Positions 9,634-25,577 of a DNA stretch of 64,000 nucleotides are shown in pieces (position 1 is the stretch's first letter; every line of letters starts with the position of its first letter). The stretch is from Enterobacter asburiae (lineage in GTDB: Bacteria > Pseudomonadota > Gammaproteobacteria > Enterobacterales > Enterobacteriaceae): positions 4,278,001-4,342,000 of the forward strand of contig JAAQVN010000001.1 in NCBI GenBank assembly GCA_011754535.1, in the 5' to 3' direction. Position numbers and translations under genes: made by a program. Under the pieces are notes generated by a model. The model was not told where the DNA came from, did no database searches, and saw only the letters and a list, made by a program, of their open reading frames with translations.

Positions 9634-9756
9634 GTGCGGCCTAAATTTTTCCGGCGGCGCCGATTCGAAAATTACTTTAAAAAACAGGCGCAGCCACGAT
9701 TTCCCTGGTGTTGGCGCAGTATTCGCGCACCCCGGTCTAGCCGGGGTCATTTTTTT
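9634..9756 (+). ncRNA. arcZ: small regulatory RNA ArcZ
   Basis: Hfq-dependent sRNA that in E. coli activates rpoS translation and represses arcB and others. It sits in the expected place, on the plus strand between elbB and the arcB 3' end. The sequence begins GTGCGGCCT, the processed 3' part is nearly unchanged from E. coli (GATTTCCCTGGTGTTGGCGC followed by AGTATTCGCGC), and it ends in the terminator stem CCCCGG-TCTAG-CCGGGG with a run of T at 9750-9756. The last ten bases overlap the arcB stop region antisense. The 5' part (about 9643-9690) differs from what I remember of E. coli. A -10-like TATCTT precedes the start. Confidence 0.92.
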
Positions 9757-12080
9757 CTGGCGTCCACCCAGGCTTTAAGCACCGCAACGTCGTTCTGCCA
9801 CTCTTGTTTCATCTCTTCAACCCAATCACCCACGTTATCTTCCCATGCAGGTAAATCAGGCGACTGAATCTGTTGGCCCAGCTGCTGCAGGTGGCGTAAT
9901 CCGACCGAGCCGGCCGCGCCTTTGATTTTATGCCCTTCTTCGACAATGCCCTTCTGGTCACGCGCCGTCAGGTTTGACTCCAGCACGCTCAGATAGCCCG
10001 GCATCATTTTTTCAAACACCGCCAGACCGTCGGTAATCAGTTTCGGGCCCACCAGATCGATGTACTGCTCCAGCATCGCGGTATCGAGTATCGTTTGGGC
10101 TTTAGCGCTATCAACAGGCGTCATGGTGCTCTCCTCTTCATCGTGGGTATCCCAGAACTTCTTGATCATGGCGGTCAGAGCAGGCACCGCCAGAGGCTTG
10201 CTGAGTACATCGTCCATACCGGCGTCGAGATACTCTTTTTTATCTTTCAGTACGTTCGCCGTCAGCGCCACCAGCGGCGGCAGTTCGTCAGCCGCGTACT
10301 GACGCGTCAGCTCACGCGAGATATCCAGCCCGGTCATATCCGGCAACTGGATATCCAGCAGAACGAGGTCATATTCGCCCGGTGTAAACATCTCCAGCGC
10401 GGCCTTACCGGTCATCGCGACATCCACGCTGTTGCCCAGTTTTTCCAGCACCGAGCGCGCTACAATCACGTTAAGCTCAATATCCTCCACCAGCAGGACG
10501 TGCAGCGCAGGTAGCGGCATATCGTCGTTTTCAAAGGTATCCTCTACCTCTTCCGCAACCGCCGGCGCATGCACCGTCAGCGTGAAGGTTGACCCTTTGC
10601 CTGCCTGGCTGGCAACGGTGATGTCACCGCCCATGCTCTTCGCCAGCCGTTTAGACACAGCCAGGCCAATCCCAGTGCCGGTGGCCGGTTTTCCGCCGTT
10701 GCTGTCCTTCACCTGGTAGTACATCGCGAAAATTTTGTCCTGCTCCTCCTGCGGAATGCCAATCCCGGAATCCTCCACCTCGAAGTGCAGCATGTCACCT
10801 TCGTCATAGCGGATACGCACCGCCACCTGCCCCTTCTGGGTAAATTTCACCGCGTTGCTGATGAGGTTCCACAGGATCTGACGCAGCCGCGTGCCGTCGG
10901 TAACGACCTTATGCGGCAGCGGCAGGGTGGGCTCCATGACAAAATTCAGCCCCTTCTGCTGCGCCTGCAGACCAGACAAGTTTTCCAGATCAGCAAGGAA
11001 GCTGGTGAAATCAACCGGCTGGTTATCAAGCTGAACCTTACGGCGCTCCATTTTATCCATATCAATAATATCGTTGAAAATATTACCCAGCGTGACCGCC
11101 GAGACATGGATAGTCTTGAGGTATTTTTCCTGCTCTGCGGTCAGGTCGGTGTCGAGCAGAATGCGGCTCAGCCCCACAATGCCGTTGAGCGGCGTACGCA
11201 GCTCGTGGCTGATGGTGGAGATAAAGGTGGTCTTGTCTCGGCTGGCGCGCTCCAGCGCGTCCTGATAGCGCTTACGCTCGGTGATATCACGGCCGAAGCC
11301 CATCAGGCCGTGGCGCTTCCCGACGCGGTCATAGTACGGTACCTTACGGATCTCAAAACAGGCTTTGCGTCCGTCCGGGTAATCCAGCCACTGTTCGTAG
11401 GTCAGCGAGACGTTATGGCGGAACACTTTTTCGTCCGTCTCCATGACCTTGGCGGCCGCCTCTTCGGAGTAAACGTCCTGCGGCTTCAGGTGAATCAGCT
11501 GCTTCTCGCTTTTCCCGGTCAGGAGCTCCATCGCCCGGTTACAGCCGGAAAACTCTTTATCTTCGTTACGGTAGAACACCAGATCCGGCGACGCGTCCAG
11601 GAACGAACGCAGGAAGGAGGATTGCTGCTCAAGCTGGATCTGCGTCACCTCGCGCTCTTTCATTTCGATTTTCAGCTGTTCCAGCGTGGCCTGACGCTCG
11701 GCCTCCGCCTTCTCACGATCTGAAATTTCCTGATTCAGCTGCGCGATGTTGTCTTTAAGCTGAACGTTGAGCTTCAGGTCACGCTCGCGCATCTCCTCAA
11801 GCTTATCGACCAGTTTTGATAAGCGCTGACGGGACTCCTCCAGCTGTTCAACCACCACGGAAAGGAAATAGACCGCCCAGGGGGTAATGAGCAAGCCAAA
11901 GAAGATAGAGCGGATGACGTCGATACTCTCGACCTGGCCATGCAGAACCATGGTGACGGCCATTTGCACGACAATGGCCAGAACGACCAGCGCCAGCGCC
12001 AGCAGCATGGAGAAACGCACCAGCCCAAGCTTCATCATCAGGTCGACGTAGTACTGGGCAAGCATTCGAATTTGCTTCAT
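9747..12080 (-). CDS. arcB: aerobic respiration sensor hybrid histidine kinase ArcB
   Basis: Inner-membrane sensor of quinone redox state that phosphorylates ArcA when oxygen is low. It has 777 residues. In order: two N-terminal membrane segments (about 20-75), a coiled-coil linker, a PAS domain with the redox-active cysteine region, a kinase core with the phosphorylated histidine in HELRTPLNG (near 292), a receiver domain with aspartate in LVLLDIQLPD (near 576), and a phosphotransfer domain with histidine in EGHKIKGAAGS (near 716). The ATG at 12080 matches E. coli; a longer in-phase frame from 12110 has no homologue. Upstream lies lptG rather than yhcC, so its promoter context is altered. 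Confidence 0.97.
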   Translation of the reverse strand: MKQIRMLAQYYVDLMMKLGLVRFSMLLALALVVLAIVVQMAVTMVLHGQVESIDVIRSIFFGLLITPWAVYFLSVVVEQLEESRQRLSKLVDKLEEMRERDLKLNVQLKDNIAQLNQEISDREKAEAERQATLEQLKIEMKEREVTQIQLEQQSSFLRSFLDASPDLVFYRNEDKEFSGCNRAMELLTGKSEKQLIHLKPQDVYSEEAAAKVMETDEKVFRHNVSLTYEQWLDYPDGRKACFEIRKVPYYDRVGKRHGLMGFGRDITERKRYQDALERASRDKTTFISTISHELRTPLNGIVGLSRILLDTDLTAEQEKYLKTIHVSAVTLGNIFNDIIDMDKMERRKVQLDNQPVDFTSFLADLENLSGLQAQQKGLNFVMEPTLPLPHKVVTDGTRLRQILWNLISNAVKFTQKGQVAVRIRYDEGDMLHFEVEDSGIGIPQEEQDKIFAMYYQVKDSNGGKPATGTGIGLAVSKRLAKSMGGDITVASQAGKGSTFTLTVHAPAVAEEVEDTFENDDMPLPALHVLLVEDIELNVIVARSVLEKLGNSVDVAMTGKAALEMFTPGEYDLVLLDIQLPDMTGLDISRELTRQYAADELPPLVALTANVLKDKKEYLDAGMDDVLSKPLAVPALTAMIKKFWDTHDEEESTMTPVDSAKAQTILDTAMLEQYIDLVGPKLITDGLAVFEKMMPGYLSVLESNLTARDQKGIVEEGHKIKGAAGSVGLRHLQQLGQQIQSPDLPAWEDNVGDWVEEMKQEWQNDVAVLKAWVDARKK

Positions 12081-12178
12081 AGAGGATCCCTTCACGACTT
12101 TATCGCTCAATAATACTCAAATTCGAGGCGGGACGTTGAGGGTTGTGAGAAAAAGTGCGGGGTGAAACAGGAGATTAG

Positions 12179-12206
12179 CCTCGCCTCCGGTTCAGCGGAG
12201 GCGAGG
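12179..12206 (-). terminator. hairpin after lptG, before arcB
   Basis: Perfect 11-bp stem CCTCGCCTCCG / CGGAGGCGAGG with a six-base loop, just after the lptG stop. On the minus strand it is followed by CTAATCTCC, not a T run, so it may only partly stop lptFG transcripts from entering arcB. Confidence 0.6.
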
Positions 12207-12215
12207 AGAGGTCAA

Positions 12216-13298
12216 TCAGGAGCGTTTCAGCAGCAGCCAGAGGCTGATCAGGAGGAAACTGGCGCTCGGCAGCAGCGCACCAATAATCGGTGGGATGCCA
12301 TAAACCAGCGTCAGCGGACCGAAGATCTGATCAAGAACGTAGAACACAAAGCCGAAGCTGATACCGGTCACGACGCGCACGCCCATCGGCACGCTACGCA
12401 GCGGGCCAAAGATAAACGACAGCGCCATCAGCATCATCACCGCCACGGACATCGGCTGGAAGATTTTGCTCCACATGTTGAGCTGATAGCGCCCGGCATC
12501 CTGCCCGCTCGACTTCAGGTACTTCACATAGTTGTGCAAGCCGCTGATAGAGAGCGCGTCAGGATCCAGCGCCACAACCCCGAGCTTATCCGGCGTGAGG
12601 TTAGTCTTCCATGTGCCGGATACCGTCTGCGAACCGGTGATCTGCTTTGGATCGGTCAGGTCAGATTCATCAACCTGCGACAAACGCCACTGTTTATGTT
12701 CAGCGTCAAACTTGGCCGAAGAGGCGTGTCGGACAGACTCCAGACGGCGCTGGTCATTGAAAGCATAGATGCTCACCCCGCCCAGTTCATCATTACCCTT
12801 TACCCGTTCGATGTAGACGAAGTTTTTACCGTCTTTCGCCCATAAACCTTGCTGAGTCGAGAGCAGTGAACCGCCGTACATTGCCTGAGCACGATAGTTA
12901 CGCGCCATCTGCTCACCCTGCGGTGCCACCCACTCGCCAATCGCCATGGTCAACAGCACCAGCGGGATTGCGGTTTTCATTACCGACAGCGCAACTTGCA
13001 TGCGGGTAAAGCCCGAGGCCTGCATAACGACCAGCTCACTGCGCTGCGCCAGCATTCCCAGCCCCAGCAGAGCGCCCAGCAGGGCCGCCATCGGGAAGAA
13101 GATCTGCACATCTTTTGGCACGCTGAGCAGGGTGTACATCCCCGCCCCCATCGCGTCATAGCTGCCCTGCCCGGCTTTTTTCAGCTGATCGACAAATTTG
13201 ATAATGCCGGAAAGCGACACCAGCATGAACAACGTCATCATGATGGTGGTAAAAATGGTTTTACCGATATAGCGATCAAGAACGCCAAACGCCTGCAT
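12216..13298 (-). CDS. lptG: LPS export permease LptG
   Basis: Inner-membrane permease of the LptB2FG transporter. It has 360 residues: three N-terminal membrane helices, a periplasmic beta-jellyroll domain in the middle, then three C-terminal helices ending in SFLLISLWLLLKRS. It begins at the lptF stop (one-base overlap), so the two permease subunits are translated together. Here it is the left end of the relocated block, and arcB lies downstream on the same strand; in E. coli the 3' end of lptG faces yjgR. Confidence 0.97.
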   Translation of the reverse strand: MQAFGVLDRYIGKTIFTTIMMTLFMLVSLSGIIKFVDQLKKAGQGSYDAMGAGMYTLLSVPKDVQIFFPMAALLGALLGLGMLAQRSELVVMQASGFTRMQVALSVMKTAIPLVLLTMAIGEWVAPQGEQMARNYRAQAMYGGSLLSTQQGLWAKDGKNFVYIERVKGNDELGGVSIYAFNDQRRLESVRHASSAKFDAEHKQWRLSQVDESDLTDPKQITGSQTVSGTWKTNLTPDKLGVVALDPDALSISGLHNYVKYLKSSGQDAGRYQLNMWSKIFQPMSVAVMMLMALSFIFGPLRSVPMGVRVVTGISFGFVFYVLDQIFGPLTLVYGIPPIIGALLPSASFLLISLWLLLKRS

Positions 13299-14398
13299 TA
13301 GATGGCTCCTTTACGCGAGAATCGGGCACGTATGCGGCGCACAGGCACCGTATCCCACAGGTTTAATCCCAGCGCCAGTAAGATGTACAGGCTGTTAACG
13401 AACCACGTCCAGACCATCGGATCCAACTTACCCTTCGCGCCGTTAGAGCGAATCGAGGTTTGCAGCAGGAAATAGATCAGGTAAAGCAGCATCGCTGGCA
13501 GCATAGAGAGCACACGGCCCTGGCGCGGGTTCACCACGCTCAGCGGAACGACAATCAATGCCATCATAAACACGGTGAATACGAGCGTAATACGCCAGTG
13601 GAATTCAGCACGCGCTCTGTCGGTATCGGTGTTCCACAGCGTACGCATATCCATTTGCTCGGTATCCGTTGGATCGAGCGCTACCGCCTGATGGCCGATA
13701 ATAGCCTGATAGTTCTGGAAATCCGTAATACGGAAGTCGCGCAGCATCGCGGTGCCTTCGAAACGGGTGCCTTTGTTCAGCGTGACTATCTGAGAACCGT
13801 CTTTGCGCTGAGCGAGCTGGCCCGAGTCGGCAACCACGACTGACGGACGCGCGTTACCTTTGGGACGCAGCTGCGCCAGGAATACATCGTTGAATTTACT
13901 GCCGTCAACGCTCTCAATAAACAGCACGGAGTTTCCGTCAGTTGCCTGCTGGAACTGACCCTGCGCGAGCGCCGCCATACCGGGGTTTGCTTTCGCCTCG
14001 GCCAGCACTTCGTCCTGATGACGGGAAGACATAGGGCCCGCCCACATTACATTCACCGCCGCAACAATGCCCGTGAACAGCGCCAGTATCATCGCCGCTT
14101 TCACCAGTACGGCTTTACTCAGGCCGCAGGCATGCATCACCGTGATTTCACTCTCGGTATACAGCTTACCGAGCGTCATGAGCAGGCCGAGGAATAGGCT
14201 CAGCGGCAGAATAAGCTGCGCCATTTCCGGGATCCCCAGACCAAGCAGGGAAAGCACCAGATTCGTTGGAATTTCGCCGTCAACGGCCGCACCGAGGATC
14301 TTAACCAGCTTCTGACAGAAAAAAATCAGCAGCAGGATGAAGAGGATCGCCAGTTGGCTTTTGAGCGTCTCCCGCACCAGATATCTTATGATTATCAC
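13298..14398 (-). CDS. lptF: LPS export permease LptF
   Basis: Second permease subunit of the LPS extractor, paired with LptG and driven by LptB. It has 366 residues with the same layout as LptG: three helices, a periplasmic jellyroll (about residues 130-260), three helices. The N-terminus MIIIRYLVRETLKSQLA is typical. It is divergent from pepA across 266 bases that must carry both promoters, the same arrangement as in E. coli, so this part of the block was not disturbed. Confidence 0.97.
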   Translation of the reverse strand: MIIIRYLVRETLKSQLAILFILLLIFFCQKLVKILGAAVDGEIPTNLVLSLLGLGIPEMAQLILPLSLFLGLLMTLGKLYTESEITVMHACGLSKAVLVKAAMILALFTGIVAAVNVMWAGPMSSRHQDEVLAEAKANPGMAALAQGQFQQATDGNSVLFIESVDGSKFNDVFLAQLRPKGNARPSVVVADSGQLAQRKDGSQIVTLNKGTRFEGTAMLRDFRITDFQNYQAIIGHQAVALDPTDTEQMDMRTLWNTDTDRARAEFHWRITLVFTVFMMALIVVPLSVVNPRQGRVLSMLPAMLLYLIYFLLQTSIRSNGAKGKLDPMVWTWFVNSLYILLALGLNLWDTVPVRRIRARFSRKGAI

Positions 14399-16176
<1,778 letters not shown>

Positions 16177-16199
16177 GCCAAAACGGCAGTAAACCGTAG

Positions 16200-16227
16200 G
16201 CCGGGTAAGGCGAAGCCGCCACCCGGC
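16200..16227. repeat. REP element between pepA and holC
   Basis: Imperfect palindrome with arms GCCGGGT and ACCCGGC around a GGCG-AAGC-CGCC core, the classic enterobacterial REP shape. A second copy of the same type lies at 21300-21327, also inside the relocated block. Confidence 0.75.
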
Positions 16228-16262
16228 TTAAGCATTTAAAGTGAGCACAAGAAGCCCCATAT

Positions 16263-16706
16263 ATGAAGAATGCAACGTTCTACCTTCTGGACAACGACGC
16301 CCATCAGGATGGCCTCAGCGCCGTTGAACAGCTGGTGTGTGAAATTGCCGCAGAACGTTGGCGCGCAGGTAAACGCGTTCTGATTGCCTGTGAAGATGAA
16401 CAGCAGGCGATTCGCCTGGATGAAGCGCTGTGGGCGCGCCCGCCGGAGAGCTTTGTGCCGCACAACCTGTCGGGCGAAGGTCCGCGAGGCGGGGCCCCGG
16501 TCGAAATAGCTTGGCCGCAAAAGCGCAACAGCAGCGCGCGCGATATTCTCATTAGCCTGCGGACAGACTTTGCAGATTTTGCCACTGCTTTCACAGAAGT
16601 GGTAGACTTTGTCCCTTACGAAGAATCCTTGAAACAACTGGCGCGCGAACGCTATAAAGCGTACCGCCTGGCTGGTTTTAACCTGAATACGGCAACCTGG
16701 AAATAA
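16263..16706 (+). CDS. holC: DNA polymerase III chi subunit HolC
   Basis: Accessory subunit of the DNA polymerase III clamp loader that, with psi (HolD), binds single-stranded DNA-binding protein and helps primer handoff. It has 147 residues, with the family N-terminus [10 protein letters not shown] and C-terminus [10 protein letters not shown]. The stop shares one base with the valS start (TAATG), a typical coupling retained from E. coli. Confidence 0.96.
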
Positions 16707-19561
16707 TGGAAAAGACATATAACCCACGCGATATCGAACAGCCGCTTTACGAGCACTGGGAACAGCAGGGCTATTTCAAGCCTAACGGCGATGAAAGCAA
16801 AGAGTCCTTCTGCATCATGATCCCGCCGCCGAACGTCACCGGCAGTTTGCATATGGGGCATGCTTTCCAGCAGACCATCATGGACACCATGATCCGCTAC
16901 CAGCGCATGCAGGGCAAAAACACCCTGTGGCAGGCGGGAACTGACCACGCGGGTATCGCGACCCAGATGGTGGTTGAGCGTAAAATTGCCGCTGAAGAAG
17001 GTAAAACCCGTCACGACTACGGTCGCGATGCGTTCATCGACAAAATCTGGCAGTGGAAGGCGGAATCCGGCGGCACCATTACCCGTCAGATGCGCCGTCT
17101 CGGCAACTCCGTGGACTGGGAGCGCGAGCGCTTCACCATGGACGAAGGCCTGTCCAACGCCGTGAAAGAAGTCTTCGTGCGCCTGTATAAAGAAGACCTG
17201 ATTTACCGCGGCAAACGCCTGGTCAACTGGGATCCGAAACTGCGCACCGCCATCTCTGACCTGGAAGTGGAAAACCGCGAGTCCAAAGGCTCCATGTGGC
17301 ACATCCGCTACCCGCTGGCCGACGGCGCAAAAACCGCAGACGGTAAAGATTACCTGGTGGTTGCCACCACTCGTCCGGAAACCCTGCTGGGCGATACCGG
17401 CGTGGCCGTTAACCCGGAAGATCCGCGTTATAAAGACCTGATCGGTAAATTCGTGGTGCTGCCGCTGGTAAACCGCCGTATTCCAATTGTGGGCGACGAA
17501 CACGCCGACATGGAAAAAGGCACCGGCTGCGTAAAAATCACCCCTGCGCACGACTTTAACGACTATGAAGTCGGTCGTCGTCACGCCCTGCCGATGATCA
17601 ACATTCTGACCTTTGACGGTGATATCCGTGAAAGCGCAGAAGTATACGACACCAAAGGCAACGAATCCGACGTCTACTCCAGCGAGATCCCGGCTGAGTT
17701 CCAGAAGCTGGAGCGCTTTGCCGCGCGTAAAGCGATTGTGGCTGCCGTTGACGCACTGGGCCTGCTGGAAGAGATCAAACCTCACGATCTGACCGTGCCG
17801 TACGGCGACCGTGGCGGCGTGGTTATCGAGCCAATGCTGACCGACCAGTGGTACGTGCGTGCCGACGTGCTGGCGAAACCGGCTGTTGAAGCGGTTGAGA
17901 ACGGCAGCATTCAGTTCGTGCCGAAGCAGTACGAAAACATGTACTTCTCCTGGATGCGCGACATTCAGGACTGGTGTATCTCCCGTCAGCTGTGGTGGGG
18001 TCACCGTATCCCGGCATGGTACGACAACGAAGGCAACGTTTATGTTGGCCGTAGCGAAGACGAAGTGCGTCAGGAAAACAACCTGAGCGCGGACGTTGCC
18101 CTGCGTCAGGACGAAGACGTGCTGGACACCTGGTTTTCCTCCGCACTGTGGACCTTCTCCACCCTTGGCTGGCCTGAGAACACCGACGCGCTGCGTCAGT
18201 TCCACCCAACCAGCGTAATGGTCTCCGGCTTCGACATTATCTTCTTCTGGATTGCCCGCATGATCATGATGACCATGCACTTCATCAAAGACGAAGACGG
18301 CAAGCCGCAGGTTCCGTTCCATACCGTCTACATGACCGGTCTGATCCGCGACGACGAAGGCCAGAAGATGTCCAAATCCAAGGGTAACGTCATTGACCCA
18401 CTGGATATGGTTGACGGTATTTCTCTGGAAGAGCTGCTGGAAAAACGCACCGGCAATATGATGCAGCCGCAGCTGGCGGAGAAAATCCGCAAGCGCACCG
18501 AGAAGCAGTTCCCGAACGGAATTGAGGCTCACGGTACAGACGCCCTGCGCTTCACCCTGGCGGCGCTGGCCTCGACCGGCCGCGACATCAACTGGGACAT
18601 GAAGCGTCTGGAAGGTTACCGTAACTTCTGTAACAAGCTGTGGAACGCCAGCCGCTTCGTGCTGATGAACACCGAAGATCAGGACTGCGGCTTCAACGGC
18701 GGCGAAATGACCCTGTCTCTGGCGGACCGTTGGATCCTGGCGGAATTCAACCAGACGGTGAAAGCGTTCCGCGAGGCGCTGGACAGCTACCGCTTCGATA
18801 TCGCGGCGGGCATCCTGTACGAATTCACCTGGAACCAGTTCTGCGACTGGTATCTGGAGCTGGCGAAGCCGGTAATGAACGGCGGCACTGAAGCGGAGCT
18901 GCGCGGCACGCGCAACACGCTGATTACCGTTCTGGAAGGTCTGCTGCGCCTGGCGCATCCGGTCATTCCATTCATCACCGAAACCATCTGGCAGCGCGTG
19001 AAGGTCATTGCGGGCATCAACGCCGATACCATCATGCTGCAGCCGTTCCCTGCATTCGATGTGGCTAAAGTTGATGAAGCGGCGTCTGCGGATACCGAGT
19101 GGCTGAAACAGGCGATCGTTGCGGTACGTAACATCCGTGCTGAAATGAACATTGCCCCGGGCAAACCGCTTGAGCTGCTGCTGCGCGGCTGCAGCGAGGC
19201 TGCCGTTCGTCGCGTCACCGAGAACAACACCTTCCTGAAAACCATGGCGCGTCTGGAAAGCATCACCGTGCTGCCTGCGGATGACAAAGGTCCGGTTTCC
19301 GTGACCAAAATCATCGACGGCGCCGAGCTGCTGATCCCGATGGCAGGTCTGATCGACAAAGACGCCGAGCTGGCGCGTCTGGCGAAAGAAGTGGCGAAAG
19401 TCGACGTGGAAATTGGCAAAATCGAAAGCAAGCTGGCGAACGAAGGCTTTGTCGCCCGCGCGCCGGAAGCGGTCATCGCCAAAGAGCGTGAGCGTCTGGT
19501 TGCCTTCGCCGATGCGAAGACCAAGCTGATCGAGCAGCAGGCGGTTATTGCAGCCCTGTAA
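16706..19561 (+). CDS. valS: valyl-tRNA synthetase
   Basis: Class I aminoacyl-tRNA synthetase that charges tRNA-Val and edits misactivated threonine. It has 951 residues, as in E. coli. The HIGH signature is HMGH at residues 49-52 (after PPPNVTGSL) and the KMSKS loop is at 554-558. The editing domain lies between them, an anticodon-binding helical domain follows, and a C-terminal coiled-coil of about 65 residues ends the chain. The strong stem at 19567-19596 ends the pepA-holC-valS run. Confidence 0.99.
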
Positions 19562-19566
19562 TGCTT

Positions 19567-19596
19567 TACCCCTTACGCTTCAGGGCGTAAGGGGTA
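19567..19596 (+). terminator. valS terminator hairpin
   Basis: Perfect 12-bp stem TACCCCTTACGC / GCGTAAGGGGTA with a six-base loop, six bases after the valS stop. The tail is CCCTTCC, not a pure T run, so termination strength is uncertain. Confidence 0.7.
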
Positions 19597-19683
19597 CCCT
19601 TCCTGAAAACTCCTCGCTTGCACTCCCTTTTCTGCGGTGCTATTAACAGCAACTGTGTGTCAATTTTTGTAATGAGTAATGCT

Positions 19684-20187
19684 ATGAGCGTGATTACCCC
19701 CGTCGCGGCGACGATGCGTCGGATCACTGAGCAGGACAATCCGGCTATCGCCGCCGTTATCCGCACCGTTTCTGCAGAGTATGGGCTGACAGCGGATAAA
19801 GGTTATACCGTTGCGGACCCGAATCTTGATGAACTGTTTAAGCTGTACAGCCAGCCGGGTCACGCCTACTGGGTGATTGAGCAGGACGGACAGGTTGTGG
19901 GCGGCGGCGGCGTTGCGCCACTGAGCTGCAGCGAGCCAGATATCTGCGAGCTGCAGAAAATGTATTTCCTGCCTTCCGTACGCGGGCAAGGCCTGGCGAA
20001 AAAGCTGGCGCTGGTCGCTCTGGAACACGCGCGCGCTCATGGGTTTAAACGCTGTTACCTCGAAACCACCGCCTTCCTCAAAGAGGCCATCGGCCTGTAT
20101 GAACATCTGGGCTTTGAGCATATCGATGCGCCGCTGGGCTGTACCGGCCATGTTGACTGCGAAGTCAGGATGCTGAAAAGTCTGTAA
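19684..20187 (+). CDS. yjgM: YjgM, GNAT-family N-acetyltransferase
   Basis: Predicted acetyltransferase of the GNAT superfamily, 167 residues, matching E. coli YjgM closely. The acetyl-CoA binding motif A is visible as [19 protein letters not shown], with the following [21 protein letters not shown] typical of motif B. Substrate unknown to me. I chose the ATG at 19684 because it gives the E. coli length; an in-phase ATG at 19672 is possible and neither has a strong ribosome site. In E. coli, yjgN lies between yjgM and valS; it is missing here. Confidence 0.85.
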
Positions 20188-20270
20188 TTTTCGTTCCTGC
20201 CCTCTTCTGTTAAGCGGCTGTAAACTGAATGCTCTACACTCTCAGTTCACACCACAACGGGGGAAACACG

Positions 20271-21290
20271 ATGTCGAAGATAAAAAGCTACGCCGCACCG
20301 CAGGCGGGTGCAGAACTTGAGCTGTACGAGTACGATGCGGGCGAACTAAAAGCAGAAGACGTCGAAGTACAGGTTGATTACTGCGGGGTCTGCCACTCGG
20401 ATCTCTCGATGATCGACAACGAATGGGGCTTTTCCAGCTATCCGCTGGTTGCCGGGCACGAAGTCATTGGCCGCGTCGTGGCGCTCGGTAGCGCCGCGCA
20501 GGACAAAGGGCTGAAAGTGGGCCAGCGCGTAGGCATTGGCTGGACAGCACGCAGCTGTGGTCACTGCGATGCCTGTATCAGCGGCAACCAGATCAACTGC
20601 CTTGAGGGCGCGGTACCCACCATCCTGAATAAAGGCGGCTTCGCCGACAAGCTGCGCGCCGACTGGCAATGGGTCATCCCGCTGCCGGACAGCATTGATA
20701 TCGAATCCGCCGGTCCGCTGCTGTGTGGCGGCATCACCGTCTTTAAGCCCCTGCTGATGCACCATATCACCGCCACCAGCCGCGTGGGCGTGATTGGAAT
20801 CGGCGGTCTGGGCCATATCGCCATCAAGCTGCTGCATGCGATGGGCTGTGAAGTCACGGCGTTCAGCTCGAACCCGGCAAAAGAGAAAGAGGTGCTGGCG
20901 ATGGGCGCGGATAAAGTGGTAAACAGCCGCGATCCTGAAGCGCTGAACGCGCTGGCAGGTCAGTTTGACCTGATCATCAACACCGTGAACGTCGATCTCG
21001 ACTGGCAGCCGTACTTTGAAGCACTGGCCTACGGCGGTAACTTCCACACCGTAGGTGCTGTGATGAAGCCGCTGCCGGTTCCGGCCTTTACCCTGATCGG
21101 CGGGGATCGCAGCGTGTCAGGCTCCGCGACCGGTACACCGTACGAGCTGCGCAAGCTGATGAAGTTTGCCGGACGCACTAAAGTGGCCCCCACCACCGAA
21201 CTGTATCCCATGTCGAAAATCAACGAAGCGATCCAGCACGTGCGTGACGGCAAAGCCCGCTACCGCGTGGTGTTGAAAGCGGATTTCTGA
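20271..21290 (+). CDS. ahr: NADPH-dependent aldehyde reductase Ahr
   Basis: Zinc-dependent medium-chain alcohol dehydrogenase (YjgB) that reduces a broad range of aldehydes with NADPH in E. coli. It has 339 residues. Catalytic zinc ligands include C41 in GVCHSD and H63 in AGHEV; the structural zinc site is C96, C99, C102 and C110. The Rossmann motif [11 protein letters not shown] follows in the middle. The ATG at 20271 follows GGGGAAACAC and matches the family N-terminus. In E. coli this gene lies next to leuX on the far side of the idn genes; here it follows yjgM directly. Confidence 0.95.
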
Positions 21291-21299
21291 TCTGAATGT

Positions 21300-21327
21300 G
21301 CCGGGTGGCGGCTTCGCCTTACCCGGC
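21300..21327. repeat. REP element between ahr and the dihydroxyacetone kinase gene
   Basis: Palindrome with arms GCCGGGT and ACCCGGC and core GGCGG-CTT-CGCC, in the gap between convergent genes. Same REP type as at 16200-16227 but in the opposite orientation. Confidence 0.75.
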
Positions 21328-21336
21328 CTACTTAAG

Positions 21337-22974
21337 TTACTGCGCCAATATGTTAAACACTTCCGCTACCGCGACCGCCCCCGGGTCCATTACCCCGTCC
21401 AGATTCTCTTTATTCACATACGATGAGCGCCCCGCACCGGCTTTCTGCATTTTCGCCGTTGCCTCTGCCCCCTTCTGTGCCGCCTGCGCCGCTGACTGAA
21501 GATCCTTTTTCTGCAATGCCTCCAGCGCCGGCTGCAGCGCGTCGATCAGGGTACGATCGCCGAGATCTGCCCCACCGTACTGCTTCATTTGCGCCAGCCC
21601 GCTGAGCAATGCCTCGGGTAGCGACTGACCATCGTGAAGCTTTTGCCCCGCCGCGGTAAAGAAGATCGACATCAGCACCCCGCTCGATCCGCCCATCACC
21701 GTGGCCAGCCGCTCGCCCACCAGCAGCAGAAGCTTAGGCACATCATTAAGCGGAAGCGCGTTCTCCTCCAGGCGCTGCGCAATATCCCGCGCCCCTTGCG
21801 CAAAGGTGGAGCCGGTATCGCCGTCGCCCACTTTGGCATCCAGCGCGTTCAGGCGGTTTTCCAGCTGTATGAGCGTCTTCGTCACCCGTGAAACAGACTC
21901 CTTCACCTGCGGGTTTTCAGATGGGGTATATTCCACGCGATCGTGAATAGCGCTTTGCGGAACGGTACGCAGGGGGGCAAACGCCACGGGTTTTTGCCAG
22001 CCCAGCGTTTCCACCTCTTCATGCAGCGCTTTCTCGAACAGGTCGTTGAGCTTCAGCAGCGTCAGAGAAAAGCCCTTCATGTCCAGGGCGCTCACCAGCG
22101 GTGCCGGGCCAATAAGATAAGCAATGTTCTCTTTCAGCGCCGAGTGAGCCAACTCTTTGGTCAGCAACGCCATTTCCAGCGCCGAGACGCCGCCGAGGTT
22201 GTTAATCAGCACCGCGAAACGCCCCTCGCCCGCCTGCGCTTTGAGCGGGGTAACCAGCGTGTCGATAATCGCTTTGCTGTTTTGCGTATCAACTACCGAG
22301 GCCCCCGGCTCCCCGTGGATCCCCAGCCCCAGTTCGACATGGCCCTGCTTGATGCGCCCCTCTTCATCGTCGCTGCCCGGCAGGTTACAGGTTTGCATCG
22401 CAACGCCCAGGCTCCAGAGGTTATCGCAGGCCTGCTGCGCAATATCCCGCACCTCGCTCAGGGATTTTCCGTGCTCCGCGGCATAGCCCGCAATCTTATG
22501 CACCAGCGCCGTACCGGCAATGCCGCGCGGCTGCTTGTTGTCGGGCAGCGCGATATCGTCCGCCACAATCACCATCTCGACCTTCAGGCCGTAGCGTTTG
22601 GCCTTTTCTGCCGCCAGACCAAAGTTCAGGCGATCGCCGGTGTAGTTTTTGACGATCAGCAGACAGCCGCGATCGCCCGTCACCGCCACAATGGCATTCA
22701 GTACCGCATCCACGCTCGGGGAGGCGAACAGATCGCCACAGACTGCCGCCGTCAGCATGCCTTTACCGACAAATCCGGCGTGTGCAGGTTCGTGCCCGGA
22801 GCCACCGCCGGAGATCACCGCCACGCGGCTTTTATCCCAGTCGCCGCGTGCCACTACGCGGATAGCCGGATCGATATCGAGCTTGACGAGATTCGCGTTT
22901 GGCGCAGAAAGGAGTATGCCTTCAATGGCATCGTTGACCAGCTGTTTGCGATCGTTAAAGAAGAATCTGGACAT
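21337..22974 (-). CDS. dhaK: ATP-dependent dihydroxyacetone kinase (glycerone kinase, single chain)
   Basis: Phosphorylates dihydroxyacetone with ATP, feeding glycolysis. It has 545 residues and two domains: an N-terminal DhaK domain with the substrate-binding histidine H220 in LGIHGEPGASV and the SGGGSGHEPAHAGF motif near residues 55-68, and a C-terminal DhaL-type nucleotide domain with LDAKVGDGDTGSTF carrying the metal-binding aspartates. This matches the fused kinase of the Citrobacter dha regulon, not the three-subunit PTS enzyme of E. coli. No glycerol dehydrogenase or regulator gene is beside it. It is divergent from yjgR across 137 bases. Symbol by analogy. Confidence 0.9.
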   Translation of the reverse strand: MSRFFFNDRKQLVNDAIEGILLSAPNANLVKLDIDPAIRVVARGDWDKSRVAVISGGGSGHEPAHAGFVGKGMLTAAVCGDLFASPSVDAVLNAIVAVTGDRGCLLIVKNYTGDRLNFGLAAEKAKRYGLKVEMVIVADDIALPDNKQPRGIAGTALVHKIAGYAAEHGKSLSEVRDIAQQACDNLWSLGVAMQTCNLPGSDDEEGRIKQGHVELGLGIHGEPGASVVDTQNSKAIIDTLVTPLKAQAGEGRFAVLINNLGGVSALEMALLTKELAHSALKENIAYLIGPAPLVSALDMKGFSLTLLKLNDLFEKALHEEVETLGWQKPVAFAPLRTVPQSAIHDRVEYTPSENPQVKESVSRVTKTLIQLENRLNALDAKVGDGDTGSTFAQGARDIAQRLEENALPLNDVPKLLLLVGERLATVMGGSSGVLMSIFFTAAGQKLHDGQSLPEALLSGLAQMKQYGGADLGDRTLIDALQPALEALQKKDLQSAAQAAQKGAEATAKMQKAGAGRSSYVNKENLDGVMDPGAVAVAEVFNILAQ

Positions 22975-23111
22975 AGTTTCCCACTATTTTGTGAACCGTA
23001 TGCAAAAGCATAGTCCGCGCTGGATAATGCGCCGCAAAGTCAGGAATTTACTTAACCAAATTGCTATCAGGTTGCCTATACTCCACCCAGGACTAAGAGA
23101 GGAAGCGCATC
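22975..23111. promoter_or_regulatory. divergent dihydroxyacetone kinase / yjgR promoter region
   Basis: Non-coding gap between divergent genes, so it should carry both promoters. The yjgR start is set by AGAGAGGAAGCG just upstream of 23112. I see no recognisable operator. Confidence 0.4.
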
Positions 23112-24614
23112 ATGAGTACACCATTGTTAATTGCCCGGACGCTGGAAAAAGAGCTGTATTTACTGCCCGCGATGGCGAACCGCCACGGCCTGATCACCGG
23201 TGCGACCGGGACGGGGAAAACCGTGACCTTACAGAAGCTGGCGGAGTCACTTTCAGAGATTGGCGTGCCGGTCTTTATGGCTGACGTGAAGGGCGATTTA
23301 ACCGGCGTGGCTCAGGAGGGTACTGCTTCTGAAAAACTGCTTGAGAGGCTGAAGAATATTGGCATCAAGAACTGGACGCCGCACGGCAACCCGGTGGTGG
23401 TCTGGGATATCTTCGGTGAGAAAGGCCATCCGGTGCGCGCCACCGTCTCCGATCTCGGCCCGCTGCTGCTGGCCCGCCTGCTCAACCTTAACGACGTGCA
23501 GTCCGGGGTGCTGAATATCATCTTCCGCATTGCCGACGATCAGGGGCTGCTGCTGCTTGACTTCAAGGATCTGCGAGCCATTACCCAGTATATCGGCGAT
23601 AACGCCAAATCCTTCCAGAACCAGTACGGCAATATCAGCAGCGCCTCTGTCGGGGCCATTCAGCGTGGGCTTCTGACCCTGGAGCAACAGGGTGCCGAGC
23701 ACTTCTTCGGCGAGCCGATGCTGGATATCAAAGACTGGATGCGTACCGACAGCAATGGCAAAGGCGTCATCAACATTCTGAGCTCTGAAAAGCTCTACCA
23801 GATGCCGAAGCTTTACGCCGCCAGCCTGCTGTGGATGCTCTCCGAACTGTACGAGCAGCTACCGGAAGCGGGCGATCTGGAAAAACCAAAACTGGTCTTC
23901 TTCTTCGACGAAGCGCATCTGCTGTTTAACGACGCACCGCAGGTGCTGCTGGATAAAATTGAACAGGTCATCCGCCTGATCCGCTCCAAAGGGGTTGGCG
24001 TCTGGTTTGTGTCGCAAAACCCGTCGGATATCCCGGATAACGTGCTTGGCCAGCTCGGTAACCGCGTGCAGCACGCCCTGCGCGCCTTTACGCCGAAGGA
24101 TCAGAAAGCGGTGAAAGCCGCCGCGCAAACCATGCGTGCCAATCCGGCCTTTGATACCGAAGCGGCGATTCAGGCGCTGGGCACCGGTGAAGCGCTGATC
24201 TCGTTCCTTGATGCGAAGGGCAGCCCCTCCATCGTGGAGCGCGCGATGGTGATCGCGCCCTGCTCGCGCATGGGGCCCGTTACTGACGATGAACGTAACG
24301 GCCTGATTAACCACTCCCCGGTTTACGGGAAGTACGAAGACGAGGTGGATCGCGAGTCCGCGTTTGAGATGCTGCAAAAAGGGGTGCAGGCGACAACCGA
24401 ATCGCAGGATGCGCCTGCCGCTAAAGGGCAGTCTGTCGCCGTGGATGACGGTATTCTCGGGGGGCTCAAAGACATCCTGTTCGGCAGTACCGGGCCGCGC
24501 GGCGGCAAGCGCGACGGCGTGGTACAGACCATGGCGAAAAGCGCGGCGCGGCAGGTTACCAATCAGATAGTGCGCGGCATGCTGGGAAGTCTGTTAGGGG
24601 GACGTCGCCGGTAG
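23112..24614 (+). CDS. yjgR: YjgR, HerA-like P-loop ATPase (DUF853 family)
   Basis: Predicted ATPase of the HerA/FtsK-like group, 500 residues, the same length as E. coli YjgR. Walker A is GATGTGKT at residues 30-37 and Walker B is the [13 protein letters not shown] segment near 260-272. The C-terminus ([16 protein letters not shown]) is intact. Cellular role unproven. It is the right end of the relocated block: its last 21 bases overlap the end of yhcC tail to tail, whereas in E. coli its 3' end faces lptG. Confidence 0.92.
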
Positions 24615-25535
24615 ACGGGGGACCCAGGGGCGGCCAAGCGCCGCCCCCTGCACGCCATTCTCCTGCAGATAGCGGTCGATTTCCACCATCCCCGTCCAGC
24701 GGTTCTCGCACCAGAGCGGTGCCAGAAGCGTTGGACGGCGGGCGCTGGCGGAGATACGGTGGTAAACAATCTCCGGCGGTGTGTGACGAATCATCTCCCC
24801 CGCCGTCACCGTATATTCCTCAAGCTCAATACCGCTTAACCGCCCGGCCTTCCAGGCTTTCGCCATAATGCTTCCCGTAACGATATGCAGGGGATGCAGT
24901 TTGATGCCGTCCACGCCGGTTTCAACCACCTTTTCCAGCGTCTCCAGGCCGTGCTGTCGACCTTCACCAGGCAAGCCGACAATCAGATGCGAGCAGACTT
25001 TTAACCCGCGCTCGCGGGCCAGCCGCGCGGTGCGCTGGTAGCAGGCGAAATCATGTCCACGATTAATGCGGTGCAGGGTTTTGTCATGTGCAGTCTGCAG
25101 GCCCAGCTCCAGCCAGATCTCGTAGCCCTGCTCTTTGTACTCGCTGAGCAGATCCAGCACCGCGTCCGGCACGCAGTCCGGGCGCGTGCCAACGCATAGC
25201 CCGACAATATTGGCCTGCATGACCGCCTGCTGATACATGGAACGCAGCACCTGCACCTCCGCCCACGTGCTGGTGTAGGCCTGGAAATAGGCCAGATACT
25301 GCTTTGCACGGTTGACCAGGCTGGCCTGGTGCGCGAGTTGTTCCGCGATAGAGTGATGCTGCTGGGCCTCGTCAGCAAAGGACGCAACGTTACAGAAGGT
25401 ACAGCCGCCGCGCCCGATGGTGCCGTCGCGATTCGGGCAGCTAAAGCCGCCGTGCAGCGTCAGCTTATGAACCTTTTGGCCGTATCGCTGCAAAAGATCC
25501 CCACCAAACATATTGACTAATTTCTGTAACTGCAT
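24594..25535 (-). CDS. yhcC: YhcC, TIGR01212-type radical SAM protein
   Basis: Radical SAM enzyme of unknown reaction, 313 residues from this start. The iron-sulphur cysteines lie in [20 protein letters not shown] near the N-terminus, and GLPGEGRQ and HPLHIVTGS are typical later motifs. The start at 25535 ([12 protein letters not shown]) matches E. coli, but an in-phase ATG at 25577 has a better AGAGG site and would add 14 residues. The last residues after GRPWVP (RLPATSP) differ from the remembered E. coli ending and are encoded opposite the end of yjgR, at the rearrangement junction. Confidence 0.92.
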
Positions 25536-25577
25536 AATCTGATAGACCGTCCCGAAGAAAGGGGACAAGCCTGCCAT

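Follow-up and report, generated by a model that had tools for sequence, protein, structure and literature searches.

A described class of rearrangement, the symmetric inter-replichore translocation, carries genes from one chromosome arm to the other while preserving both their distance from the replication origin (oriC) and their strand bias; it has been linked to the nearness of the arms and to the pairing of replication forks (PMC4889656). Inversions centred on the origin are presented as common and iterative in three further reports (PMC9584773, PMC2483231 and PMC12863080). Here we analyze a 64,000-nucleotide stretch of Enterobacter asburiae (the window; assembly GCA_011754535.1, contig JAAQVN010000001.1, positions 4,278,001 to 4,342,000), in which a 12.5-kb block of lptG, lptF, pepA, holC, valS, yjgM, ahr, a dihydroxyacetone kinase gene (dak) and yjgR, essential genes among them, stands between arcB and yhcC. 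The block belongs to the known kind of symmetric inter-replichore translocation: its old and new sites lie on opposite arms at similar distances from oriC, and its orientation to the fork is preserved. New are a lineage-defining example of this kind, its recurrence in another genus, and a yhcC stop codon taken from antisense yjgR. In our assessment the displacement is very probably the product of two overlapping inversions, both spanning oriC, in the ancestor of the genus to which the window's genome belongs (hereafter, the genus).

Comparison with the closest described cases places the block within this class and also sets it apart. As in the translocations of PMC4889656, there was a cross-arm move to a similar distance from oriC, without loss of the gene dosage gradient or the strand bias. 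While that work surveys about 250 genome pairs, the present case is a single block, fixed in a genus, with four junctions resolved and a gene order that reveals the inversion path. The likeness to the inversions of PMC9584773 and to the symmetric inversions of Yersinia (PMC2483231) lies in origin-centred inversions that can be iterative in a lineage; those inversions are large and visible, whereas here two old, near-cancelling inversions would leave a displaced and permuted block of 12.5 kb. The locus further resembles the excision and reintegration of tRNA-targeted elements, in that the donor site abuts leuX, a known integration site; unlike such elements, however, the moved piece lies 5' of leuX, consists only of housekeeping and metabolic genes, and has no integrase. 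The literature searched contains no description of this block and no paper in which arcB, lptG and yhcC occur together.

The first-pass annotation of the window had stated, for Escherichia coli K-12, that arcB adjoins yhcC and that the remaining genes lie by leuX. The K-12 annotation bears this out, with the order leuX-ahr-idn-yjgR-lptG-lptF-pepA-holC-valS-yjgN-yjgM-rraB-argI. The gene content and order that it gave for the block likewise stand, as judged from open reading frames (ORFs) and protein families, and so do the block limits of 12081 and 24614, the start codon of arcB ending at 12080. Our outgroup set comprised the lptG and arcB regions of 20 other genera, drawn from the better-scoring of 108 matches outside the genus to an arcB-lptG query. 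In all 20, the run lptG-lptF-pepA-holC-valS lies away from arcB, and yhcC comes next after arcB; in L235 and L241 an additional 1.4 and 2.7 kb of DNA separates these two genes. yjgR adjoins lptG in 11 of the 20 genera, and leuX falls inside the fetched stretch in 14. Between yjgM and rraB the outgroups carry miaE and, in some, also orf240, the gene for a 240-residue protein that gave no Pfam match. The dak gene is found between ahr and yjgR in outgroups as well (L217, L219, L227 and L233); since it occupies the same place in several outgroup genera, the difference from the idn genes of K-12 does not belong to the rearrangement.

In the window's genome (G000) the old site reads argI-rraB-miaE-orf240-leuX (argI-rraB at G000:C1:614453-616028), with leuX about 1.7 kb behind rraB. 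The same emptied site is observed in 10 of 10 further genus members. A leuX region without the block genes, a point raised in the first-pass annotation, is therefore found in 11 of 11 members, in which rraB-miaE-orf240 runs into leuX, and the stretches fetched at the old site of these 11 hold no block gene or remnant of one. The sister genome G084 keeps both arcB-yhcC (L245) and orf240-yjgM (L225); it has only a remnant of yjgR, and its leuX lies beyond the fetched stretch. As the outgroups and this sister retain arcB-yhcC, the arrangement in the window is derived and not ancestral. A tree of five block proteins from 47 sequences (L231 and L272 left out for broken frames, L216 as a duplicate of L005) unites the 20 genus members in one clade with a support of 0.975 and draws G084 as their nearest sister. 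The simplest reading is that the rearrangement happened once, before the genus diversified.

The distribution of the new junctions agrees with the derived state. Queried with window positions 11500-13000, arcB-lptG gave one full-length match in each of the 61 genus genomes. yjgM-ahr is contiguous in 60 of the 61, the exception being G190, which has no real match, and yjgR-yhcC is contiguous in 58, the exceptions being G200 and G203, with no yjgR there, and G190, a fragmented draft. For the two family-wide junction searches (149 and 392 genomes) the match lists cover the higher-scoring matches, and full-length junction matches sort to the top. Among the matches listed, arcB-lptG was contiguous in 0 of the 147 non-genus genomes searched, 108 of which had any match, and the second draw of 392 family genomes returned it in five, all of the genus. 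yjgR-yhcC was contiguous in just two of the 149 genomes searched, both genus members. Of these two junctions, whose comparison across relatives the first-pass annotation had proposed, both are present in the genus, and neither is contiguous outside it among the matches listed. With arcB-lptG in all 61 genus genomes and no listed match from other genera, we conclude that this is a genus-wide derived state and not an assembly error.

That the window carries a circular permutation of the ancestral order had been stated in the first-pass annotation, and our comparison upholds it. Two features go beyond that statement, the inversion of both block halves relative to the chromosome and the placement of donor and target close to mirror images of each other about oriC. 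If the ancestral chromosome is written as arcB|M|B|A|leuX, where M is yhcC...oriC...orf240, B is yjgM...lptG and A is yjgR...ahr, then G000 reads arcB, -B, -A, M, leuX, with both block halves inverted in chromosome coordinates. When the signed orders of five segments were searched breadth-first with the ends held constant, exactly one two-inversion path (M+B, then -M+A) led from the ancestral to the derived order, without breakpoint reuse. In the same search neither a single inversion, which the first-pass annotation had correctly called insufficient, nor a single transposition, direct or inverted, gives the derived order. Given this additional reversal of the block, a pair of overlapping inversions across the origin produces the order exactly. 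The first of them would break arcB|yhcC and lptG|yjgR and make arcB-lptG and yhcC-yjgR; the second would break orf240|yjgM and ahr|leuX, turn the origin-bearing segment back, and make yjgM-ahr and orf240-leuX. These joins would have been made between two replication forks at about equal distance from the origin.

The positions of the two sites were compared in a symmetry table of 10 genomes, namely K-12 and 9 of the 20 examined. The remainder, not tabulated, were two members of the genus (G000 and G144), two genomes whose origin sits on a different contig (G074 and G099), one with a rounded length (G076) and six distant genera. arcB and lptG are observed on opposite arms in 8 of the 10, with offsets of 5 to 146 kb. 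Their respective distances from oriC are 573 and 563 kb in K-12, 534 and 528 in G001, 512 and 522 in G041, 550 and 595 in G084, 608 and 569 in G028, 546 and 615 in G009, 514 and 596 in G023, and 484 and 630 in G065. Inspection of the distant genera by hand placed the sites on opposite arms in G016 and G025 (offsets near 28 and 80 kb) and in G011 (length rounded), and on one arm in G071, G017 and G027. The block of G000 is on the arcB arm, with its arcB-lptG junction 531 kb from oriC, compared with 595 kb for lptG in the sister G084. valS runs against the fork both in K-12, where it is on the minus strand of the right arm, and in the window, where it is on the plus strand of the left arm; its head-on orientation is the same before and after the move, as inversions about the origin require.

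A second case turned up in the search of 392 genomes. In G437, which belongs to genus g42 and thus lies outside the genus, lptG and arcB are 11 kb apart. One of its contigs reads ahr-tabA-pyrB-pyrI-ridA-dak-yjgR-lptG-lptF-pepA-holC-valS-yjgM-mtgA-elbB-arcB-mgtA-treR-treB-treC, and another reads gltB-yhcC-argI-rraB-miaE-npr-rapZ-ptsN-hpf-rpoN. Four relatives within its own genus (G041, G236, G316 and G382) retain the ancestral order at both places over the stretches fetched. We regard G437 as a separate case in which these two regions exchanged genes reciprocally, with mtgA-elbB-arcB having gone one way and argI-rraB-miaE the other, which fits two inversions and one further move. One inversion would pair arcB|yhcC with mgtA|ridA, and the other would pair the gene before mtgA with miaE|yjgM, which would set miaE by the npr side; the pairing of miaE|yjgM with a yrbL|mtgA break was predicted before the argI-rraB-miaE end of the second contig was inspected. 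The additional move is needed for tabA-pyrBI-ridA between ahr and dak together with the yhcC-argI join. In K-12 yrbL lies between npr and mtgA; there is no room for yrbL in the window, so its absence in G437 is not countable as an extra event. Two spacers, arcB|yhcC and the one behind yjgM, are broken in both lineages. It is conceivable, if on balance doubtful, that these two spacers form a recurrent exchange pair between the arms, broken independently in the genus and in G437. Such a pair could mark a place where the two forks, equally far from oriC, are prone to breakage or stalling, and the reciprocal case yields a testable prediction, recurrent exchange between mirror sites.

Sequences at which the inversions might have recombined were sought in the ancestral spacers. 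Among outgroups, matches resembling repetitive extragenic palindromic (REP) sequences were seen in 9 of 13 yjgR-lptG spacers and in 7 of 21 arcB-yhcC spacers; in three of the latter they are strong, with 9 or more hits. The background is high too, with such matches in 13 of 21 pepA-holC spacers, and the derived junctions of G000 have none. In a shared-word test, in which the longest word common to two spacers is set against 40 shuffles, the spacer pair of the first inversion went beyond all 40 in 3 of 10 outgroups (L218, L219 and L224), with REP-like words of 13-14 bases; four unpaired control spacer pairs gave a word beyond chance in 0 of 34 comparisons. REP-mediated recombination for the first inversion stays a suggestion, because REP-like repeats are common elsewhere, none is left in the G000 junctions, and the shared words are direct.

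Several observations weigh against two inversions as the path. The three longest shared words are in direct and not inverted orientation on the chromosome, so they do not favour an inversion over the release and reinsertion of a circle, and for the spacer pair of the second inversion no common word beyond chance turned up in any of 8 outgroups. The mirror symmetry is inexact, being 45 kb off in the sister G084 and up to 146 kb off in others, and both sites are on one arm in two of the 10 tabulated genomes, G108 and G134. The predicted intermediate, with arcB-lptG joined and orf240-yjgM still joined, was not found among the matches listed. In G437, the expected yhcC-ridA join is found as yhcC-argI, needing the further move.

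From the permuted order the first-pass annotation had gone on to an excised and reinserted circle, and this step is not supported: two overlapping oriC-spanning inversions give the exact order, and the mirror positions, the head-on valS and G437 point to inversions. A circle would have been released through the orf240-yjgM and ahr-leuX spacers and reintegrated through the yjgR-lptG spacer between arcB and yhcC. Judging from the gene orders, it would likewise take only two cut-and-join steps and leave the same four junctions; the order in the genus, taken alone, is compatible with it, and the longest words that the arcB-yhcC and yjgR-lptG spacers have in common in three outgroups could support reinsertion whichever way the circle faced. 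A circle does not, however, predict the mirror position, since a random target would fall within 45 kb of the mirror point (the offset in G084) with a chance of about 0.02, nor does it predict the inverted orientation, one of two possible, which by our reckoning adds a further factor of half. It requires a transient circle bearing valS, lptF and lptG, and it takes the excised piece from the 5' side of leuX, whereas elements that target tRNA genes use the 3' end for integration. Between the two releasing spacers no common word beyond chance was found in any of 8 outgroups, no integrase or recombinase is found among the block genes by ORFs and curated models, and the two-way swap in G437 is left unexplained. 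We therefore consider a circle improbable. A candidate for a natural circle, the 93.8-kb circular E. coli "plasmid" record NZ_AP023207.1 (L302, L304 and L305) with valS, lptFG and pyrBI, looks like a slice of the chromosome from ytfB to fimE and was judged a likely misassembly, with the first 3 kb of its chromosome record inspected. An integrative element at leuX was also discarded, the moved piece being on the 5' side of leuX and without an integrase.

Somewhat less probable still is a tandem duplication from ahr to yjgM, of which a segment across the duplication joint moved between arcB and yhcC, with the old copies then lost. Such a course would yield the permuted order, and the essential genes would stay chromosomal throughout, but the stretches fetched at the old site in 11 genus members carry no leftover copy, more steps are needed, and neither the mirror position nor the inversion is predicted. 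The converse polarity, in which the window keeps the ancestral order and E. coli and the other relatives depart from it, could appeal to several other genera (e.g., G027, G017 and G048) in which arcB and lptG share a contig at about 50-200 kb from each other. It is contradicted by the arcB-lptG join not being seen outside the genus among the matches listed (149 and 392 family genomes) and by the retention of arcB-yhcC in G084, nearest to the genus in the tree, and in the remaining 19 genera fetched, and we give it very little credence. Least credible of all is an assembly artefact, with nothing found in its favour, as the arcB-lptG junction recurs in 61 of 61 separate genomes and stands at alignable positions in 21 aligned genus sequences. 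Two overlapping inversions about the origin remain the best explanation of the block, and the case illustrates that two near-cancelling inversions can mimic the excision and reinsertion of a circle; absolute orientation and mirror position help to distinguish the two.

The features of the block and its flanks are collected in the table. Gene calls combine the ORFs of the window with curated NCBIfam models, and yjgR, valS and yjgM were assigned via the annotated K-12 genes.

Table. Features of the displaced block and its junctions in window coordinates; the last row gives positions within the stretches fetched from G437.
Feature	Position	Strand	Basis and remarks
arcB, target flank	9747..12080	-	NCBIfam ArcB, 1465.6 bits; own upstream region retained to ~12150
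Junction J1, arcB-lptG, derived	12081..12215		breakpoint ~12150-12178, between arcB upstream region and lptG 3' hairpin
Predicted hairpin behind lptG, now between lptFG and arcB	12179..12206	-	ViennaRNA
lptG	12216..13298	-	NCBIfam TIGR04408
lptF	13298..14398	-	NCBIfam TIGR04407
pepA	14665..16176	+	NCBIfam NF002072
holC	16263..16706	+	NCBIfam NF004345
valS	16706..19561	+	ORF; tblastn of window protein vs annotated K-12 valS, 93% identity
yjgM, 167 aa from ATG 19684	19684..20187	+	longer ORF begins 19618; matched to K-12 gene
Junction J3, yjgM-ahr, derived	20188..20270		ahr-side upstream sequence retained, leuX-side spacer lost
ahr	20271..21290	+	NCBIfam NF047908; longer ORF begins 20229
dak, single-chain dihydroxyacetone kinase	21337..22974	-	NCBIfam TIGR02361, 574.3 bits, just under cut-off 574.95
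yjgR	23112..24614	+	tblastn vs K-12 yjgR, 93% identity
Junction J2, yjgR-yhcC, derived	24594..24614		convergent 3' ends share 21 nt
yhcC, target flank	24594..25577	-	NCBIfam TIGR01212; native C-terminal end and stop replaced
G437 stretches	L288 1-19901, L289 1-15001, L307 1-18001

The spacers are too diverged for exact nucleotides to be named, so the breakpoints are bounded to tens of bases. About 70 bases upstream of arcB are outgroup-like, to ~12150, and the 3' side of lptG starts thereafter. A strong stem is predicted by ViennaRNA in the lptG-arcB spacer in 21 of 21 genus sequences (G000 and 20 relatives), with variable letters. The ahr|leuX break falls in the intervening spacer, and the upstream sides of both genes are retained. 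The break at yhcC removed its native stop, and in the window yhcC reads through antisense yjgR to a new stop, with an overlap of 21 bases. Outgroup yhcC proteins end a few residues past a conserved ALG.PW-like motif (L273, L282 and L285 excluded from the comparison of C-termini). Among 18 further genus members with yjgR, 16 have no insert in the yjgR-yhcC spacer, and two (L272 and L281) have a short one. In G200 (L274) and G203 (L275), yjgR is absent between dak and yhcC, and dak is reduced to short pieces in G200. Little effect is expected beyond the placement of arcB behind lptFG and a new C-terminal tail on yhcC, and no new system, because the block genes keep their operons, their approximate distance from the origin and their orientation to the fork. 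As the change is common to all 61 genus genomes, this resolved rare genomic change is a possible marker for species in or out of the genus.

Some further observations concern genes near the two sites. Directly downstream of leuX in G000 (L256 2934-4486), a D12-class adenine methyltransferase gene and its neighbour match PD-Lambda-5 B and A of PADLOC, the match to A covering just the last part of the model in that ORF; judged from these matches, the place is probably an anti-phage defence island. In two other genera yjgR lies alone 40-50 kb from arcB, with lptG elsewhere (G081:C38:118415 and G065:C1:495750), which is a separate history of yjgR in those two genera. A second ornithine carbamoyltransferase-like gene, with ~70% identity to K-12 argI, is located at G000:C1:601721-602581 and is matched in 48 of the 61 genus genomes, mostly 4-13 kb before argI.

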